Position numbers and translations under genes: made by a program. Shown here in pieces: positions 2,126 through 20,762 of a stretch of 32,995 nucleotides of DNA; the first letter of the stretch is position 1, and each line of letters opens with the position of its first letter. The notes beneath the pieces were generated by a model, which saw only the letters and a list, made by a program, of their open reading frames with translations, made no database searches and had not been told where the DNA came from. This DNA is from Nitrospirota bacterium (GTDB lineage Bacteria > Nitrospirota > Thermodesulfovibrionia > Thermodesulfovibrionales > SM23-35): assembly GCA_014859105.1 (NCBI GenBank), contig JACUUX010000029.1, positions 1 to 32,995 on the forward strand, read 5' to 3'.

Positions 2126-2848
2126 CTAAAAGCCATTGTAGAACTCACCACCAATGCCTTTAGCTGTGCTTTCATAGACAACAGCGGTATCTTCCTCTTT
2201 CGGAACACACTGAAGAAGAGAGATAAGAAGGGCGGATTGATTCTCTGCGGGCCACTTTGAAACCTCGCTTAAATGAAGATGATGGATTAACTGAGCACTT
2301 CCGAAGTCGGATTTACCCGCCGTACCTACCCTGATAGCAGAGTCAAGGCCATCACCGGCCTTATTGTTGAATTCAAGCATTTTGGTGTTGTTGTACTTTG
2401 TTTGTGGCTTGAACTCAGGGGGAAGGTTGTCGTGATACCTTTTCTGCATCTTGAAGAGAAAGTCGCTGGCTTCCGGTTCATGGGTGACCAGACAGCTATA
2501 ACGGTTCTTTTGATTTGCCGTCTTCCAGAAGAAACGGCCTGTAAAGTAAGTGGACACGCCCTCGCGCCTTGCCTTCAGGATGAATGCACGGATAAAGCCT
2601 GTATTATTTTCGATGTCATTGACAATTTCCTCAAGGATGTTTTGGATTTCATTGAAGTGGTAGTTGATCTTCTTACCGTCCATGGTTTGAATTTTGAGGT
2701 ATCGCTTGGCATAGGTGGGATAGTGCTGGTAGGCTTCCATAAAAAGCCGATCAAGTTCAGCTTGCTCTTGAGATATCATCTCAGGGGTTGCGATGATCTT
2801 CGTTAATCTATTTTCATCAACCCCATCCTTCGCCATTGCCTCCTGCAT
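2126..2848 (-). pseudogene. terL: Truncated phage terminase large subunit (ATPase part)
   Basis: Terminase large subunits pump DNA into phage capsids and carry an N-terminal ATPase and a C-terminal nuclease. Here a Walker A-like K-A-R-R-E-G-V-S-T is at residues 92-100, a Walker B region ending in LSE at 193-195, and the coupling motif ESTAKG at 226-231. The frame stops at TAG 2126-2128 just after GGEFYNGF. Beyond it the same frame still reads ACKYVYEIYLDSGKPAWRR before losing sense, so the nuclease half is gone. Residues 1-20 are not TerL: they look like the end of the small subunit, so a deletion has fused the two. This is a non-functional prophage remnant. Confidence 0.75.
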
Positions 2849-3075
2849 AGCAGTCCGAACCCGAGGATTCCTGAGAACTTCTGCGGTTTGATCGTTTGCG
2901 GTACTTTCCGAATATCCGGCATCGCAGCTTTCACCGTCTTGAACTTGCCGGATAAGAGGTTCTTAATCAATCTTTCCCTTTTTAATGAAGTATATTTCCT
3001 TGTCTTGTTCTGAGCCAACCCAGATGTTCCTACAGGCTCAACCTTTGATGCTCGTGCCCCTCTTTTTTGCCTCAC
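2803..3075 (-). pseudogene. terS: Frameshifted terminase small subunit-like gene
   Basis: A GTG at 3075 follows GGAGGG at a spacing of 6 nt, a credible start. The first 50 or so residues (basic N-terminus, then LKRERLIKNLLSGKFKTVKAA) read as the helix-turn-helix start of a small terminase. Near 2915-2930 the sense moves to another frame, where DAGYSESTANDQTAEVLRNP follows and runs into the ORF carrying the terminase large subunit. AGYSxxTA and VLRNPxV are characteristic of small terminases that recognise packaging sites. The 30-40 residues after the shift in the nominal frame are nonsense. One small indel explains it. Confidence 0.6.
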
Positions 3076-11109: not shown

Positions 11110-12591
11110 CTATTTAATGCTCTCGGCAGTGAATATATACAATTCGGCGTTCTTCCATGCCCCATGGGGTAACCCGGCTTTAACACACAACTGTTCGAGA
11201 AAAGTCTCCCTGTCCCATCCATTTTCTGTTGCAACCTGTGGAAGAAGAAGCCCACGTTGCAGACCTTTCCTTATAACAAGGCCATGCTTTCCGACCTGAA
11301 TATCATTCACATTCTTCAGTGTATTCAAATGGGAGAGGATAGAAATCTCTACTTCTATATCTTCTAACTCTTCTTTTCTCAGAGGAGGAAATCTCGGGTC
11401 GCCCGAGCATGCTGCTATGGCATTTTTTACAACAGATTGATAAAGTGGCATGATTGGCTGGATATGACCTATACAGCCTCTCAGAGAGTCATTCTTTTTT
11501 ATTGTTACAAAGACAGCCCCATCAGATTTTAGCTTCGGGTTTCTTATTTCTATTGCGGGAGTCTTACCATTTGTAACATATTCGGCAACAGTGTTTCTTG
11601 CGATTGTTAGCAGTTCTGCTTTATCTGAATCTGTCAGTATGTTCTTGAATAATCCGATGGATGAATAGCCTACAACATTACTCTTTTCGCCTGTGACATC
11701 ACCTGAGTTTTCATACCTTAAGAGTAAGCCGAGATTCGCCCCCGATCTCCGGGCGACTTCTATAGTAATAAGAACAGGAAAAGCCCCGCAAAGTTCAGCC
11801 TCACCGGTTCTCAAAAGTCTTTCAGTGTCAATAACTGATAATCTTTCGATTGAGGATATAATCTTGCTGTCCATATCTTTAGCTTTTTGATACTCGTGAT
11901 AATGTGAGAGATCTGTACTGGCAATAAGCAGTGTCCTTTCATCTATTAAATCTGTCAAATTCGATACGAGGTGTTCGAAAGCCTGTCTTGTTGGGGAACC
12001 GGTCAGAACCGGTACCATTGTAAAATCTCCGAGCACTGTCTGAAGAAACGGCAGTTGAACTTCAAGGGAATGTTCTTTTTCGAAGGCATCGGGGAAAAAC
12101 CTGACGTCCGCAGCTTCATTCAATATTTCCTTTGCAAGTTTTTCGTCTATTTTTACATTCCCGAGAGGCGTCTTAAAGCTACCTTTTATGTAAACAGAAG
12201 CACCTTTAAAGCTGACACGGTGGCTTGGCCCTATCAATATAATTTTATTTATGCTGCTTTCTTTAATTTGTTTATATCCAAAGGCTGCAACCTGACCTGA
12301 ATATTTGTAACCTGCATGTGGTGAAATAAGGGCTATCAGCTTTCCGTCAGCCTTAACCTTCTCTGCTTTTGATAAAAATCCATCAACAGTTTTTTTTAGT
12401 TCACCGGGATCTGAAGGATAAAATATACCTGCCACAGCAGGCTCTTTTATATCCTCTGTGCAGCCATTAGAAACGAGAACAGTTATTAAAAGGAATAAAG
12501 CGAAGAGCAAGGAATACGGTTGCTTCCAGCAGAAGAGATTGCTTCGGGGACTTTGTCCCCTCGCAATGACGTTTTTTTGATATGTCTTCAT
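11110..12591 (-). CDS. MEMO-AMMECR1 fusion protein with lipoprotein-type leader
   Basis: A 493-residue fusion of AmmeMemoRadiSam proteins B and A. Residues about 50-310 are the MEMO domain (AGIFYPSDP, ISPHAGYKYSG, IGPSHR, EKEHSLEVQLPFL and STDLSHYH; its His residues resemble extradiol dioxygenase ligands). Residues about 325-490 are AMMECR1 with the LRGCIGH motif. Upstream is a hydrophobic segment (27-43) ending SNGC at Cys44, a lipobox-like site, so the protein may be membrane-anchored outside the cytoplasm. Residues 8-20 are encoded by a dispersed repeat at 12535-12571, so the true start may be downstream, for instance a TTG just before the hydrophobic segment. The radical SAM partner lies upstream on the same strand. 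Confidence 0.85.
   Translation of the reverse strand: MKTYQKNVIARGQSPRSNLFCWKQPYSLLFALFLLITVLVSNGCTEDIKEPAVAGIFYPSDPGELKKTVDGFLSKAEKVKADGKLIALISPHAGYKYSGQVAAFGYKQIKESSINKIILIGPSHRVSFKGASVYIKGSFKTPLGNVKIDEKLAKEILNEAADVRFFPDAFEKEHSLEVQLPFLQTVLGDFTMVPVLTGSPTRQAFEHLVSNLTDLIDERTLLIASTDLSHYHEYQKAKDMDSKIISSIERLSVIDTERLLRTGEAELCGAFPVLITIEVARRSGANLGLLLRYENSGDVTGEKSNVVGYSSIGLFKNILTDSDKAELLTIARNTVAEYVTNGKTPAIEIRNPKLKSDGAVFVTIKKNDSLRGCIGHIQPIMPLYQSVVKNAIAACSGDPRFPPLRKEELEDIEVEISILSHLNTLKNVNDIQVGKHGLVIRKGLQRGLLLPQVATENGWDRETFLEQLCVKAGLPHGAWKNAELYIFTAESIK
12535..12571. repeat. Dispersed hairpin repeat (GAGATTGCTTC...CTCGCAATGACG)
   Basis: The 37-nt element has nested inverted repeats: ATTGC with GCAAT outside, and GGGGAC with GTCCCC inside around a TTT loop. 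Elements ending in GAGATTGCTTCG and CGCAATGACG are scattered in many bacterial genomes as small non-autonomous repeats. Here it lies inside the 5' end of the MEMO-AMMECR1 ORF and would encode part of its leader. Only one copy is in this window. Confidence 0.65.
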
Positions 12592-12612
12592 AATCTTAAA
12601 TCTTACTTAAAA

Positions 12613-12744
12613 TCAATACAACCTTTTCCAGAACATGGCCTGCTTTGGTTTCGACTCAGGATTCGTTTCAGCTTTTATCTTTTTACCGAAAAGGCTCAGA
12701 ATGCTTCCTAAAAAAAATATTTTCAGAAAATCCCTTCTCTTCAT
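12613..12744 (-). CDS. 43-residue Tat-leader ORF, detached AmrS head
   Basis: The ORF begins MKRRDFLKIFFLGSIL, a twin-arginine signal with RRDFLK, then a hydrophobic core and a KKIKA junction. It ends KPKQAMFWKRLY. In AmmeMemoRadiSam radical SAM proteins that carry a Tat leader, the sequence (E)AMFxxKL comes directly before the first cysteine motif (VxCxLCPxxC). The radical SAM protein encoded just upstream starts exactly at that motif and lacks the leader. This small ORF therefore looks like its missing head, encoded separately after its 3' end. Whether it is translated is unknown; no strong ribosome binding site is seen. It sits between the radical SAM gene (15 nt gap) and the fusion gene. 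Confidence 0.5.
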   Translation of the reverse strand: MKRRDFLKIFFLGSILSLFGKKIKAETNPESKPKQAMFWKRLY

Positions 12745-12759
12745 AATGTAACCCTCATA

Positions 12760-13734
12760 TCAACTCCATATACCCGGAATGGAAGCACTGCAGAACTTGC
12801 ACTTCCCATTAGTTATATTGTTCTGTTTTACAAAATAACCTGTTCTTTCGATCAACATCTTCTTACATTCAGGACAGTATGTACTTTCAGCCTCATGTCT
12901 TATATTACCTATATAAACAAATTTCAGCCCTGCATCAATCGCTGTTTTTCTCGCCTCTGTGAGTGTTTCTACCGGTGTTGGCGGAAGATTAGTCAATTTG
13001 TAATGAGGAAAGAACCTTGAAAAATGGACTGGTACATCAGCCCCGAGGTTCTTCGCTATCCATCTGCACATATCTCTGATTTGTTTCATATCATCATTGA
13101 GGGTAGGTATCACGAGATTGGTAATTTCCAGCCATACATCTTCTTTCTTCAATAAGACGAGTGAACCGAGGACGGGTTTAAGACTGCCGTTACACATTTT
13201 AGCGTAAAAATCCTCTGAGAAACCCTTAAGGTCTATATTAGCTGCATCCATATATTTTGTTAATTTCCTGAGTGGTTTTTCATTTATATATCCGCAGGAA
13301 TGAATCGTATTCTTTATCTTTCTTTTCCTGGCGATTACTGCTGTGTCGTACATGTATTCATAAAATACAGTAGGTTCTGTATAGGTGTAACTGATTGATC
13401 TGCACTTATGGAAAATAGCATGTGTCACAACTTTATCTGGCGGGAAGTCATATGTGTCTGTATCTTCCGGTTTTGCCTGGGATATCTGCCAGTTCTGGCA
13501 AAACTTGCAGCTGAGGACACACCCGGCTGTGGCAATTGAAAATGTAGTTGTTCCGGTTAGGAAATGAGAAAATGGCTTTTTCTCAATGGGGTCTATGTGG
13601 ACTGCACAGGGTTTCCCGTAAACAAGGCTGTAAAGTGTCCCGTCTTTATTTATCCTTGTCCTGCATCTGCTGACCTGGTTGATGTCGAGAACACATGCAT
13701 TAGGGCAGAGTTCACATTGAACAGTTTTTGACAT
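12760..13734 (-). CDS. amrS: AmmeMemoRadiSam system radical SAM enzyme (AmrS)
   Basis: A 324-residue enzyme with an N-terminal cysteine motif (CELCPNAC, then CRTR), the linker LVYGKPCAVHIDPIEKKP and the radical SAM cluster motif CVLSCKFC (Cys72, Cys76, Cys79) followed by QNWQISQ. YTYTEPTVFYEYMYD and NIDLKGFSEDFY are family hallmarks. The C-terminus carries CPEC and CKFC pairs, probably a rubredoxin-like or extra metal site. AmrS always travels with MEMO and AMMECR1 proteins, and here both are fused in the gene downstream. The substrate is still unknown. A TATAAT lies 5 nt before the ATG, so the mRNA may be leaderless. Confidence 0.9.
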   Translation of the reverse strand: MSKTVQCELCPNACVLDINQVSRCRTRINKDGTLYSLVYGKPCAVHIDPIEKKPFSHFLTGTTTFSIATAGCVLSCKFCQNWQISQAKPEDTDTYDFPPDKVVTHAIFHKCRSISYTYTEPTVFYEYMYDTAVIARKRKIKNTIHSCGYINEKPLRKLTKYMDAANIDLKGFSEDFYAKMCNGSLKPVLGSLVLLKKEDVWLEITNLVIPTLNDDMKQIRDMCRWIAKNLGADVPVHFSRFFPHYKLTNLPPTPVETLTEARKTAIDAGLKFVYIGNIRHEAESTYCPECKKMLIERTGYFVKQNNITNGKCKFCSASIPGIWS

Positions 13735-14786: not shown

Positions 14787-14863
14787 CGGGGCGTAGCGCA
14801 GCCTGGTAGCGCACTCGCTTGGGGTGTGAGTGGTCGCCCGTTCAAATCGGGTCGCCCCGACCA
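14787..14863 (+). tRNA. tRNA-Pro (anticodon GGG)
   Basis: A complete 77-nt cloverleaf. The acceptor CGGGGCG pairs with CGCCCCG, and the discriminator A and CCA are encoded. The D-arm holds AGCCTGGTAGCGC, the anticodon loop TTGGGGT gives GGG, and the T-arm is GCCCGTTCAAATCGGGT. It probably shares the ihfA-merR transcript. Confidence 0.97.
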
Positions 14864-15731: not shown

Positions 15732-16565
15732 CTAAGTAATTATTTTCAAGCTTATGTCAGCAGCCTTAAAAGAGTGTGTAATAGCGCCGACAGAGATTAA
15801 ATCAATACCTGTCTCTGCAATTTCTCTCACATTTTCTAATGTTATGCCACCTGAAGCCTCAAGTATTACTTTACCTTGAGAAATTTTAATAGCTCCTTCC
15901 ATTTCATCGATTGACATATTGTCCAGCATAACTATATCTGCACCGGCATCTATAGCTTCCATAAGGCCCTGACGATTCTCAACCTCCACTTCAATTTTTA
16001 GAAGATGGTGACCTGTTTTTGCTCGTTCTACTGCTTTCTTGATACTGCCTACAGCCTTTATATGATTATCTTTTATTAAGATTCCGTCAAAGAGTCCAAA
16101 TCTGTGGTTACCTCCCCCGCCAATTCTTACAGCATATTTTTCCATGAACCTTAAACATGGCGTGGTCTTTCTTGTATCGACAATTTTTGCTTTTGTGCCT
16201 GCTACTTTTCCGACATATTTTCTTGTAAGATCAGCAATTCCAGAGAGCCTTTGCAGTATGTTAAGACTCAACCGTTCTCCTGCAAGAATTGCAAGTGTTT
16301 TCCCGGAAACTTCGGCAATTATATCACCTTTTTTAATTTTAGCTCCTTCATTAAAAAGGGGCTTAAACACAATTGAGCTATCGAGGATTGTAAAAACCTT
16401 TTTTGCGAAAGGGATTCCGGCAACAACAAAATCCCCCTTTGCGATAAAGATTGCCTTTGATTTGTTTTGTTCCGGTATCAGAAGGGTTGATGTAATGTCG
16501 CCAGGGCCTGTATCTTCTTCGAGTGCGCGATGAATAATATCAATTACAGCCGGGGGAATTTCCAT
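15732..16565 (-). CDS. nadC: Quinolinate phosphoribosyltransferase (decarboxylating)
   Basis: A 277-residue enzyme that converts quinolinate and PRPP into nicotinate mononucleotide, the step that joins de novo NAD synthesis to the common pathway. Motifs: EDTGPGDITS near the start, GERLSLNILQRLSGIA, DTRKTTP, KYAVRIGGGGNHRFGLFDGILIKDNH (in pieces), EVEVEN, ADIVMLDN, EASGGI and ISVGAITHS. These include the Arg, Lys and His residues that bind quinolinate and PRPP. The usual Gly after TRKTTP is Cys, a mild change. It starts 1 nt after the stop of the solenoid protein gene and shares the operon with nadE. Confidence 0.95.
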   Translation of the reverse strand: MEIPPAVIDIIHRALEEDTGPGDITSTLLIPEQNKSKAIFIAKGDFVVAGIPFAKKVFTILDSSIVFKPLFNEGAKIKKGDIIAEVSGKTLAILAGERLSLNILQRLSGIADLTRKYVGKVAGTKAKIVDTRKTTPCLRFMEKYAVRIGGGGNHRFGLFDGILIKDNHIKAVGSIKKAVERAKTGHHLLKIEVEVENRQGLMEAIDAGADIVMLDNMSIDEMEGAIKISQGKVILEASGGITLENVREIAETGIDLISVGAITHSFKAADISLKIIT

Positions 16566-16566
16566 T

Positions 16567-17055
16567 CTATTTTCTTCTGAAAAGTAAGGAAAGGAATCCC
16601 CATATTCCTCCGAAAACAGCGCCTAATGCGAGTGCAGATTTCCAGTCAAGAACAGTCGTTACATCTCCTTCGATTTTATTTGTTAAGACGAGAAAAGCCG
16701 TTGTATTTTCTGATTTGATATTTCTTGCAGCCATTACACCAATAGCTGAATTGTTAGCGGTTGTCTGTTCTCTCGAGATTGATACAGGGGAGAGAGAAAA
16801 ATTTACAGACAGATTGTCAGCAGCTGATATAGCACTTATACTTTGATTCATGTTTATATCATGGCCCCTGAGAATTGCCGCTGCACCCTGCGTAACCTCC
16901 ACCCTTTCACCATCTATACTCAGTGCGCCTACTTGCTGAAGTTCAATATGTCCTCCTTCAACCGCTCTTACGGTACTCTGTTTTATATTTACAAATTCCC
17001 CTTCAATTAAATCTAAGTCACCCTTTTCGATTTTACTTTCTTCTTTATATTTCAT
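16567..17055 (-). CDS. 15-residue-repeat solenoid protein with C-terminal membrane anchor
   Basis: A 162-residue protein with no enzyme motif. Residues 22-127 consist of seven consecutive repeats, six of exactly 15 residues and one of 16: VNIKQSTVRAVEGGH, IELQQVGALSIDGER, VEVTQGAAAILRGHD, INMNQSISAISAADN and so on. Gln recurs at 26, 41, 56 and 71, and hydrophobic residues alternate, as in a beta-solenoid. A helix at about 139-158 (ALALGAVFGGIWGFLSLLF) followed by RRK should anchor it to the membrane. Similar repeat-plus-anchor hypothetical proteins occur in Chloroflexi and elsewhere, as far as I recall; bactofilins have a comparable fold. The start uses GGAGGTG inside the end of valS and touches its TAA. 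Function unknown. Confidence 0.75.
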   Translation of the reverse strand: MKYKEESKIEKGDLDLIEGEFVNIKQSTVRAVEGGHIELQQVGALSIDGERVEVTQGAAAILRGHDINMNQSISAISAADNLSVNFSLSPVSISREQTTANNSAIGVMAARNIKSENTTAFLVLTNKIEGDVTTVLDWKSALALGAVFGGIWGFLSLLFRRK

Positions 17056-19788
17056 TTACACCTCCGCATCTAAAAGCATTTTAATACTGCCTGCAATTCT
17101 ATCTTTGACACTGATAAGTTCTTCATACTTTTCCTTTTCCTTCTCAACAACCTCTTTAGGAGCCCTCTGGAGAAAATCCTCATTAAGGAGTTTTTTATTC
17201 AGTATTGCGATTGATTCCTCCACCTTTTTTTCATCCTTTTTAAGTCTATCCACTTCTGCTTTAATATTCAAGACCCCTTTAAGAGGAACGTATATTTCCA
17301 TCGAACTTTTAACTGACGTAGCGGAGTGATCCGGTTTTTCGATAGATATCCCGATGGTTATTTCTTCAGCCTTTGCAAGCCCTTTTATATATTCAACATT
17401 TTCAAGTAATATCTTCTGTACAGTTTTAGAAAATGTCTTTATAAATATATTAAGTTTAATGGAAGGAGATATGTTCAGTTCACCTCTTATTGTCCTTGCT
17501 CCTGTTACCGCCTCTATTATATAAAACATATCTCCTTCAGCCTTATAGTCCCTCGGTAAAGACCTCGGGAAATCAGATATAGTGATGCTCTCTTTATTTT
17601 CCATAGGATGAACTTTAAAATCAGAACAGAAGACTTTAGTCTTCTGCCATATTTCCTCTGTAACGAATGGCATGAAAGGATGTAAAAGTCTCAACGAGGT
17701 ATCAAGAGTATGAAGGAGACACCACCTGACTCCAGTCTGTGAGGCTGGATTCTTAATTTCAATCTTTGACAGTTCAATATACCAGTCACAGAATTCATGC
17801 CATATGAACTGGTATATACTGCTTGCCGCATCATTAAATCTGTATTCTTCAATCGCCCTGTTTACATCATCTGTAGTAACTGCGAGTCTGCTTGAAATCC
17901 ATTTGCTGGCGAGGTCTTCTGGCCTTGAATCTTCTTTAAGATGGAGTGGCGGAATTTTAATATGAGATGAAGGATTATTTGATCCGGTCTTTAAATTCAT
18001 TATTATGAACCTTGCTGCGTTCCAGAGTTTATTGACAAAATGCCTGTATCCTTCAACCCTGTCTTCAGAGAACTTTATGTCCCGACCCTGTGCAGCGAAG
18101 GCTGCGAGTGTGAATCTGAAGGCGTCTGTGCCATACCGGTCTATCATTATTAAAGGGTCGATGACATTACCTTTGGACTTGGACATCTTTTGGCCTTTTA
18201 TATCCCTTATAAGGGCATGAATATAAACATCCCTGAAAGGCACATCCCCCATAAATTTGAGTCCCATCATAATCATTCGTGCAACCCAGAAGAAGATAAT
18301 GTCGAAAGCTGTCACGAGTACACTCGTAGGATAGAAGGTCCTCAAATCTTCTGTTTCATCAGGCCAACCGAGTGTAGAAAAAGGCCAGAGTGAAGAGGAA
18401 AACCATGTATCAAGCACATCCCCGTCCTGTTCAAGTTTTTCAGAGCCACAATAAGGACAGACCTGCGGATTTGCCGTGGATACTGTAACACCTTCCCTTA
18501 TCTTACATTTTTCGTTTCTCATTTCCTGGCAGTACCATACGGGAATTCTGTGCCCCCACCATATCTGACGTGAAATACACCAGTCCTTTATATCCCCCAT
18601 CCAGGCAAAATAAATATTTTCCCAGGTCTTTGGCATTATCCTGATTTTCCCATCCTCAACTACTTTAATAGCATCTTTGGCCATGGATTGGACATTGACA
18701 TACCATTGGAGGGTTGACAGGGGCTCAGTGATTGTTTTACACCTGTAACAGTGCCCCACTGCATATTTGTGTGATTCTTCTTTTTCTACGAGCTTAAGTT
18801 CTTTTAAGTCTTTAAGCACAATCTTTCTGCATTCATATCTATCCAGACCTGCATATCTGGCACCGGCATCTGAGGTCATCCTGCCATCTTTGCCTATAAC
18901 CGTGATGAAATCCAATGTCGGATTTTGTCTTTTTGCTATAGCCTCGTCGTTAAAGTCATGAGCCGGTGTAATTTTTACTGCACCGGTACCGAAAGAAGGG
19001 TCAACCGAATAGTCAGAAATAATTTTTATTTTTTTGTTTGTTAAAGGCAGATTGACTGTTTTGCCTATTAATTTTTTATATCTGCTGTCTTCAGGATTTA
19101 CTGCAACGGCAGTATCTCCGAGCATGGTCTCCGGTCTTGTGGTTGCAACAGTAATATACCTGCCTTTATTCTCAGAAAGTGGATATTTTATGTAGGTTAA
19201 TTTGCCTTCAAACTCCTCGTATTCCACCTCAAGGTCTGAAAGTGCAGTATGACAACGCATGCACCAGTTTATAAGACGGTTATCCCTGTAAATCAGGCCT
19301 TCTTCATAGAGCCTTACAAAGACTTCTCTCACAGACCTTGAGAGGCCTTCATCGAGTGTGAACCGCTCACGTGTCCAGTCACAGGAGGCGCCCAGCCTTT
19401 TCAATTGATGGATTATCTTTCCTCCGTATTCTGCCTTCCATTTCCAGACATATTCTATAAATGCATCACGTCCTATTTTATGTCTGTCGAGACCCTCTGA
19501 AGCAAGCTGCTTTTCCACTACATTCTGTGTTGCTATACCTGCATGATCGGTGCCGGGCAACCAGAGAACTTTATATCCTGACATCCGCCTCCAGCGAGAA
19601 AGTATATCCTGTAATACAGAATTGAGTGCGTGCCCCATGTGCAATGAGCCGGTAATGTTCGGAGGGGGAATAACTAAGGAATATGGTATACCCTTATATC
19701 CCGGGTCTGGCGTGAAAAATCCCTTAGAGACCCAGAATTCGTACCATTTTTCTTCGAGACCTTTAGGATTGAAGCTCTTCTCTAAAAT
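17056..19788 (-). CDS. valS: Valyl-tRNA synthetase with non-canonical ATT start
   Basis: A class I synthetase of 910 residues that charges tRNA-Val. The N-terminus reads LEKSFNPKGLEEKWYEFW, and PPPNITGSLHMGHAL carries the HIGH motif (HMGH). The CP1 editing domain contains TTRPETMLGDTAVAVNP and GTGAVKITPAHD. KMSKSKGNVIDP is the KMSKS loop. Anticodon-binding helices and a C-terminal coiled-coil arm (VDRLKKDEKKVEESIAIL) follow. The frame has no ATG, GTG or TTG between the upstream in-frame TAA and the HIGH motif. The only plausible start is ATT at 19788, with AAGG 5 nt before it, overlapping the stop of the response regulator. Starting at the internal ATG would remove the PPPNITGSL segment. Confidence 0.9.
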   Translation of the reverse strand: MLEKSFNPKGLEEKWYEFWVSKGFFTPDPGYKGIPYSLVIPPPNITGSLHMGHALNSVLQDILSRWRRMSGYKVLWLPGTDHAGIATQNVVEKQLASEGLDRHKIGRDAFIEYVWKWKAEYGGKIIHQLKRLGASCDWTRERFTLDEGLSRSVREVFVRLYEEGLIYRDNRLINWCMRCHTALSDLEVEYEEFEGKLTYIKYPLSENKGRYITVATTRPETMLGDTAVAVNPEDSRYKKLIGKTVNLPLTNKKIKIISDYSVDPSFGTGAVKITPAHDFNDEAIAKRQNPTLDFITVIGKDGRMTSDAGARYAGLDRYECRKIVLKDLKELKLVEKEESHKYAVGHCYRCKTITEPLSTLQWYVNVQSMAKDAIKVVEDGKIRIMPKTWENIYFAWMGDIKDWCISRQIWWGHRIPVWYCQEMRNEKCKIREGVTVSTANPQVCPYCGSEKLEQDGDVLDTWFSSSLWPFSTLGWPDETEDLRTFYPTSVLVTAFDIIFFWVARMIMMGLKFMGDVPFRDVYIHALIRDIKGQKMSKSKGNVIDPLIMIDRYGTDAFRFTLAAFAAQGRDIKFSEDRVEGYRHFVNKLWNAARFIIMNLKTGSNNPSSHIKIPPLHLKEDSRPEDLASKWISSRLAVTTDDVNRAIEEYRFNDAASSIYQFIWHEFCDWYIELSKIEIKNPASQTGVRWCLLHTLDTSLRLLHPFMPFVTEEIWQKTKVFCSDFKVHPMENKESITISDFPRSLPRDYKAEGDMFYIIEAVTGARTIRGELNISPSIKLNIFIKTFSKTVQKILLENVEYIKGLAKAEEITIGISIEKPDHSATSVKSSMEIYVPLKGVLNIKAEVDRLKKDEKKVEESIAILNKKLLNEDFLQRAPKEVVEKEKEKYEELISVKDRIAGSIKMLLDAEV

Positions 19789-20708
19789 TCTGACCTTATC
19801 CTCTCTATTTCCTTAAGAATCATGTTCTCTGCAAGGTCAGGCACGGTTTCCCAGATTACCTTTTCAACCTCTTTTGTGAGAGATTCGAGAGAGCCTTGTA
19901 ACATCTCTTTTAGCATCCTCTCAGCAAGGTCAGGAGTGACTTCCCACAGCACTTTCTCTACGGAGTCTTTCAACAAGGGCATAAGTGAGGCAATAATAGA
20001 TTCTTTTATATCAAGAGATGATAGTAATGAAGATAAATTTTCTTTTACCTTGTTTTCAAAGATTTCCCTGATTTCATCTTTTGAAGGAAGTTCTATGTCT
20101 TTAATTTCAACCTCGACTTTTTTGCTTTCTGGTTTTTCAATCACAGATGGCTCAATCTTTTCCTCAATTCCGATCATTTCTTCAGTACTTGCACCTATTC
20201 CTTGTTCTGCCGGCCAGCTTTCAATGTCTGCGGTTTCAGGGATTTCTTCTAATGCCCAGAGATCTTCTTCAGCAGTTGATTCCTCGAGACCAACTGCTTC
20301 AACTGCGGTAACTTCCTCTAATTCCTCTTCATACACAGCCTTGACCGTCAGGGCGGCGTTGATTTTACTTATTAGTTCCTGCGATTCAAATGGTTTGACT
20401 ATAAAGTCATCCGCCTTTACATGTTTAACGAGAGCTTCGTCTATTGGCTCAAATGCTCCTGTGAGCAGAATCACGGGTATACTGCTCATTACAGGATCCT
20501 GTTTTATCTTTTCACAGAGCTGGTAGCCGTTTAATTTGGGCATGTCTATATCAGCAAGGATTATATCAGGCTCGAAAGACGGAACAGCAGCAAGAGCTTC
20601 TTCGCCGCTGTTAGTTGCCTTTATCTCAAACCCTTCATCAGCAAGTATAAGTTCGACTACTTTCTGTATCGTAATACTGTCATCTGCAAGGAGAAGTTTA
20701 TGTACCAC
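19782..20708 (-). CDS. Response regulator with C-terminal helical repeat domain
   Basis: Residues 1-120 form a receiver domain: LLLADDSITIQKVV (acidic pocket), the phosphoacceptor Asp in ILADIDMPKLNG, the Thr in VILLTGAF and the Lys in IVKPFES. A long acidic linker rich in Glu and Ala follows. The C-terminus has two copies of a motif, VEKVLWEVTPDLAERMLKEM and VEKVIWETVPDLAENMILKE, both predicted helical. No DNA-binding or enzymatic output domain is seen, so it probably acts by protein contacts. GTG at 20708 with AGAGG 8 nt upstream is preferred to the GTG at 20717. Its stop overlaps the valS start. No histidine kinase is nearby. Confidence 0.85.
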   Translation of the reverse strand: MVHKLLLADDSITIQKVVELILADEGFEIKATNSGEEALAAVPSFEPDIILADIDMPKLNGYQLCEKIKQDPVMSSIPVILLTGAFEPIDEALVKHVKADDFIVKPFESQELISKINAALTVKAVYEEELEEVTAVEAVGLEESTAEEDLWALEEIPETADIESWPAEQGIGASTEEMIGIEEKIEPSVIEKPESKKVEVEIKDIELPSKDEIREIFENKVKENLSSLLSSLDIKESIIASLMPLLKDSVEKVLWEVTPDLAERMLKEMLQGSLESLTKEVEKVIWETVPDLAENMILKEIERIRSEF

Positions 20709-20762
20709 TATTCTCACCTCTTGCTTATCTTTTGAAGATTTTATTGTTAAGTGCCGAAAAAG

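Follow-up and report, generated by a model that had tools for sequence, protein, structure and literature searches.

A predicted beta-solenoid of 15-residue coils with a candidate tail anchor, encoded between valS and nadC in Thermodesulfovibrionia

Bactofilins (PF04519; BacA, BacM, CcmA) polymerise nucleotide-independently into non-polar filaments. They form beta-helices which associate with the membrane, and the membrane is bound by either an N-terminal peptide or an N-terminal transmembrane helix (PMC12448750). An orphan gene, here called X, was found in the window, i.e., the whole stretch of 32,995 nucleotides analysed in this work. Like bactofilins, its product is a small bacterial protein with a predicted beta-solenoid, a disordered N terminus and, presumably, membrane association, and the predicted solenoid is close in size to the compact right-handed triangular bactofilin beta-helix (about 110 aa). 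It differs from them in its 15-residue coils, each of which we infer to consist of two strand segments, in the lack of PF04519 or profile similarity, in carrying its putative membrane helix at the C terminus, where bactofilins have a targeting peptide at the N terminus, and in occupying one fixed locus.

Three other groups of proteins are comparable in part. The C-terminal domain of cyclase-associated protein and tubulin cofactor C (CAP/TBCC) is a parallel beta-helix of similar size, and these proteins are not known to carry a membrane helix. Antifreeze beta-solenoids, such as spruce budworm AFP and Lolium IBP, have coils of 14-15 residues, near the coil length of X; unlike them, X is putatively membrane-anchored and not threonine-laddered, and antifreeze proteins are not among the fold matches listed for it. 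Bacterial tail-anchored proteins (SecE; Streptomyces PkaB and SCO7133; PMC3087755) resemble X in lacking an N-terminal signal and in ending with a single hydrophobic helix, but the soluble part of X is a predicted beta-solenoid and its membrane insertion is only presumed.

The features of the locus are collected in Table 1. As the original prediction had it, X touches the valS stop and lies 1 nt from nadC: its start codon (17055) immediately follows the valS stop codon (17056) on the minus strand, and a single nucleotide separates its own stop from the nadC ATG (16565). The dN/dS ratio was 0.05-0.29 in ten close pairs, showing that X encodes a genuine protein on which purifying selection acts. 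A scan of genome contigs gave 29 homologues with about 48-75% identity, and a profile search located X in 136 of 230 Thermodesulfovibrionia genomes, always in a single copy except for two genomes that have it in fragments. X thus represents an unannotated protein family maintained by purifying selection through most of the class. In a sample of 396 Nitrospirota genomes, the same search found no member in any genome of another class, and a peptide-pattern scan of the whole contig collection had matches only in records titled as Nitrospirota-type or unnamed bacteria. Similar short-period tail-anchored proteins are suspected among the hypothetical proteins of Chloroflexota or Actinomycetota.

Table 1. 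Position of gene X, its predicted parts and its neighbours in the window
Feature	Coordinates	Strand	Description and basis
Gene X (orphan)	16567..17055	minus	162 aa, ATG start; ORF and translation
Domain order of X		minus	disordered N-terminal region, then beta-solenoid, then candidate membrane helix at the C terminus
Beta-solenoid of X	16645..16995	minus	residues 21-137, ~8 coils of 15 (one of 16); AlphaFold2, lag-15 z 6.9
Most conserved distal coils of X	16882..16959	minus	residues 33-58 (EGGHIELQQVGALSIDGERVEVTQGA); low column entropy
Hydrophobic helix of X, candidate tail anchor	16576..16644	minus	residues 138-160, then RK tail; AlphaFold2, 19-residue Kyte-Doolittle window (KD19)
Glycine zipper of X, G145xxxG149xxxG153	16597..16623	minus	in the membrane helix; homologue conservation
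valS (valyl-tRNA synthetase)	17056..19644	minus	directly upstream of X; PF00133, PF08264, PF10458
nadC (quinolinate phosphoribosyltransferase)	15732..16565	minus	directly downstream of X; PF01729, PF02749
Receiver-domain protein	19782..20717	minus	upstream of valS; acidic linker, C-terminal segment; PF00072

The 15-residue periodicity is the most regular property of the protein. Hydrophobic residues V22, I37, V52, I67, L82, T98, I113 and I128 form a register with spacings of 15, 15, 15, 15, 16, 15 and 15, in agreement with the six 15-residue units and one 16-residue unit counted earlier between residues 22 and 127; the Gln residues reported at positions 26, 41, 56 and 71 are also there. Self-similarity of residues 16-137 of the single protein at lag 15 gives z=6.9, a value reached by none of 2000 shuffles even when the maximum over lags 5-30 is taken. 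The family profile gives z=8.2 at the same lag (0 of 1000 shuffles). Adjacent lags show no peak; the one at lag 30 is a harmonic of 15. Lag 15 is the top lag (range 8-40) in all 90 distinct homologues, with a mean z of 7.0 and a minimum of 5.6, so the exact period claimed for one protein extends to the family and no homologue without it was seen among the 90. For comparison, only one unrelated ORF among 297 from the neighbourhoods exceeded z 4.0, at its lag 19.

The structure of X was modelled by AlphaFold2 using a 29-row alignment of homologues (mean pLDDT 81.7, pTM 0.67). The model has beta-strands spanning residues 28-137 (from E28-33 to E127-137), with pLDDT block means of 92-97 over residues 51-130, a helix at residues 138-160 and a disordered N terminus, residues 1-24 being unmodelled. 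Strands of about 13 residues alternate with turns of two residues located at the Gln positions, which is our basis for two strand segments per coil. The regular short period and the predicted parallel coils are both characteristic of beta-solenoids, and the small solenoid that had been anticipated from the sequence, with coils of 15 residues and a helix at its C-terminal end, was indeed returned by structure prediction and is kept across homologues. The fold model depends on the homologue alignment, as prediction from the single sequence gave a pLDDT of 39, a common outcome when no alignment is supplied. Between residues 18 and 137, 81 of the 90 homologues have no indel relative to the window protein and the other nine differ by exactly one residue; the coil number is thus constant. 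Overall, the predicted architecture, a 15-residue solenoid combined with a glycine-zipper tail, is confident and unusual.

Conservation along the protein is divided into three zones (mean column entropy in 90 homologues). The distal coils at residues 16-60 are conserved (0.81-1.12 bits, narrowing to 0.81-1.06 bits for the coils at residues 31-60), the middle residues 61-120 are variable (1.70-1.98 bits) and the membrane-proximal coil with the helix, residues 121-150, is conserved again (0.93-1.35 bits). Residues 33-58 are a candidate face for docking or dimerisation. The reason why the distal coils are so conserved could also be structural, namely the Gln ladder, and not functional.

No relative of X was found in the family, structure, phage and plasmid libraries searched. 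The X protein has no Pfam match at E<=10, and the Pfam, NCBIfam and PHROGs searches with X and 29 homologues yielded only chance-level or generic matches, none to a family that would describe it. We consider three of these to be repeat or composition noise: Beta_helix (best E 0.0034, 7 members), an Rz-like spanin PHROG (best E 0.0004, 8 members) and YqgE (E 0.006). Searching PDB by sequence gave nothing convincing, and Foldseek comparison of the model with PDB and viral models gave nothing at E<=0.001. The first and several further PDB matches listed by Foldseek are CAP/TBCC (CARP) structures (1kq5, 1k8f, 1k4z, 2b0r), none of them a significant match (E 0.38-5.2, TM 0.29-0.34, 7-12% identity; best E 0.38 at TM 0.30). 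Tblastn against plasmids and phages and a scan of viral contigs found no relative either, so X bears no sign of mobile origin. We found nothing relevant in the literature on a gene associated with valS-nadC or on such an architecture.

A bactofilin-like scaffold, as had been suggested for X, does not agree with these searches. PF04519 (IPR007607) is absent from the matches of X at E<=10 and from the families matched by 29 members at E<=1; hhalign of the X profile against seven bactofilins of the class gave a probability of 1.4% over 26 columns, and none of the Foldseek PDB matches listed is a bactofilin. No N-terminal membrane targeting of the bactofilin type was detected in 89 homologues, whose hydrophobic helix is C-terminal, i.e., at the opposite end, and the occurrence of X does not follow that of bactofilins (see below). 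The true bactofilin of the source genome is encoded elsewhere (C108). We therefore class X not with the bactofilins but as a separate, unnamed family of beta-solenoids, which varies a known type of fold.

In all 89 homologues evaluated, the C-terminal helix has the sequence properties expected of a tail anchor. The best 19-residue Kyte-Doolittle window has a mean of 1.91 (minimum 1.48) and ends within 4 residues of the C terminus (median 3), making it a single hydrophobic helix at the extreme end of the protein. There is no hydrophobic N-terminal segment, the maximal score in the first 78 residues being 1.10, and hence no N-terminal signal sequence is apparent. Within the helix, G149, G150 and G153 are present in 97-98% of 90 homologues, and a strict GxxxGxxxG is found in 78 of them.

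Two observations bear on the topology. The net charge is +2.9 in the last seven residues vs +0.15 just before the helix, and by the positive-inside rule such a tail favours the C-in, N-out orientation. In one genome (locus L019, identical to L066) valS and X are joined into one 1055-residue frame (L019:5950-6060), with X complete and ValRS connected in frame to its N terminus. Compared to the sister locus L085, it lacks 31 nt that include the stop codon of valS and the start codon of X, so the fusion, which is known from one metagenome assembly, is not a single-base slip. If expressed, it would place the N terminus of X on a cytoplasmic enzyme, favouring a cytoplasmic solenoid. Judged from sequence, fusion and charge bias would therefore favour opposite topologies, N-in and N-out, respectively.

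The neighbourhood of X is nearly invariant. The surroundings of X were retrieved from 90 genomes. In 89 of them valS immediately precedes X (the exception is a contig end), and in 89 nadC immediately follows it; the X start often overlaps the valS stop. The directon continues as nadC - purM - M23 peptidase - true bactofilin at L015:6489-9614 and likewise at L016, L017, L028 and L029. In X-negative genomes of the class with a complete locus, valS and nadC are separated by roughly 0-65 nt, and in the sampled genomes of other Nitrospirota classes valS abuts nadC and X is absent. When presence and absence of X were mapped on a valS+nadC tree (125 rows), 12 changes were needed, of which at least 9 are forced by starred branches, vs 33 in shuffles. 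The simplest reading is a single gain, at the base of the class or close to it, followed by about eleven precise losses; this direction is deduced from the outgroups, which have valS-nadC alone, as the change count itself gives none. Since about 11 losses leave valS-nadC intact, X is accessory and dispensable to ValRS and NadC, and its fixed locus is a matter of vertical inheritance in a stable operon. The earlier description of X as locked between valS and nadC thus holds for its position, and the survey of gene neighbourhoods placed X between the two in practically every genome, but the functional link to tRNA charging and NAD synthesis does not follow, valS-nadC being older than X and surviving its losses. 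Comparison with empty sites is instructive here: constant neighbours may hint at a functional connection for which the losses give no support.

The receiver-domain gene upstream of valS was also considered. Its product has a long linker and C-terminal IWETVPDLAE-type motifs, and the gene is conserved beside valS across most of the class. It is still there in most X-negative genomes; not being co-lost with X, it was rejected as an obligate partner.

We tentatively favour, at somewhat less than even chances, a reading of X as an accessory tail-anchored membrane post which docks or organises something at the membrane. This model builds on what was computed (the gene and its conservation, the periodicity, the predicted solenoid with its hydrophobic tail, the fixed locus and the history of gain and loss) and supposes membrane insertion, topology, oligomerisation and the docking role. 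X would be made in the cytoplasm, its C-terminal hydrophobic helix then inserting into the inner membrane, where the glycine zipper may pack it with the helices of other X copies. The eight-coil solenoid, about 4 nm long if each coil contributes about 0.48 nm, would act as a rigid post of fixed length. Its variable middle coils would serve as a spacer and the conserved distal coils (33-58) as a working face, either docking a partner or pairing with another post, so that X could organise or recruit something at the membrane; the valS-nadC operon would serve it for expression only. A more specific version, i.e., a class-specific membrane organiser in which a fixed-length post of 15-residue coils oligomerises through its glycine zipper and exposes a conserved docking face to the cytoplasm, is rather doubtful; if true, X would be a membrane organiser of a new kind.

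Some of the same observations may be read otherwise. Beta-solenoids are common in exported proteins, and the positive charges after the helix fit a periplasmic solenoid (N-out), in which case X would be an envelope protein, for instance a stalk or spacer that extends to the outer membrane or the peptidoglycan. We consider this unlikely, given that X lacks a signal peptide-like segment, that a folded 15-kDa domain would need to cross the membrane N terminus first and that the single ValRS fusion puts this terminus on a cytoplasmic enzyme. It is quite improbable, too, that X is a non-canonical polymer-forming cytoskeletal element whose solenoids stack end to end under the membrane in a bactofilin-like manner. 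The N-terminal end of the solenoid appears open in the AlphaFold2 model, bactofilins are likewise membrane-associated beta-helices (PMC12448750), and some relatives encode X, nadC, purM, an M23 peptidase and a true bactofilin in one directon. The C-terminal end of the solenoid, however, continues directly as the membrane helix, and this would prevent tail-to-tail stacking; X has neither a sequence or fold match to bactofilins nor its anchor at the same end. No association between the two was seen: bactofilin is absent from 6 of 30 tested X-positive and 4 of 28 X-negative genomes, and MreB, present in all 58, does not correlate with X.

Tethering of ValRS and/or NadC to the membrane by X, or their regulation by it, would be in line with the conserved flanks, with the frequent overlap between the X start and the valS stop and with the one genome in which the two genes are fused. 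However, the valS-nadC pair is older than X and stands alone in outgroups, it persisted through the losses, and adjacency is explained by vertical operon inheritance. We know of no such membrane-tether dependence for ValRS or NadC, and regard this role as very unlikely.

The start of valS in the window deserves a separate mention. Neither ATG nor GTG nor TTG occurs before its PPPN...HIGH region, and the coding region probably begins at ATT 19788-19786 (minus strand). In most other class members the gene starts with ATG or another canonical codon, located about 41-43 residues ahead of PPPN. ATT is present at the homologous position in all 14 sampled sequences (the window genome and 13 relatives of its family), where it overlaps the stop codon of the upstream gene (ATTTTAG) within the nearly invariant AGGTCAGAATTTTAG. 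One of these relatives, L005, also has a TTG further upstream, and a basal member of the family, L021, has an ATG start. On this pattern, valS is possibly AUU-initiated in this genome and the 13 relatives. AUU is known as a start codon from infC; if true, its conserved use for an aminoacyl-tRNA synthetase would be unusual.

Elsewhere in the window, short ORFs at 2126-3075, the larger of them without a Pfam match, resemble by eye a phage terminase fragment and may be a prophage remnant. A tRNA-Pro (ggg) gene at 14787-14863 lies between a MerR-like ORF and a gene for a DedA-like membrane protein. A Memo-AMMECR1 fusion is encoded beside a radical SAM protein at 11110-13734, an arrangement of the AmmeMemoRadiSam type.
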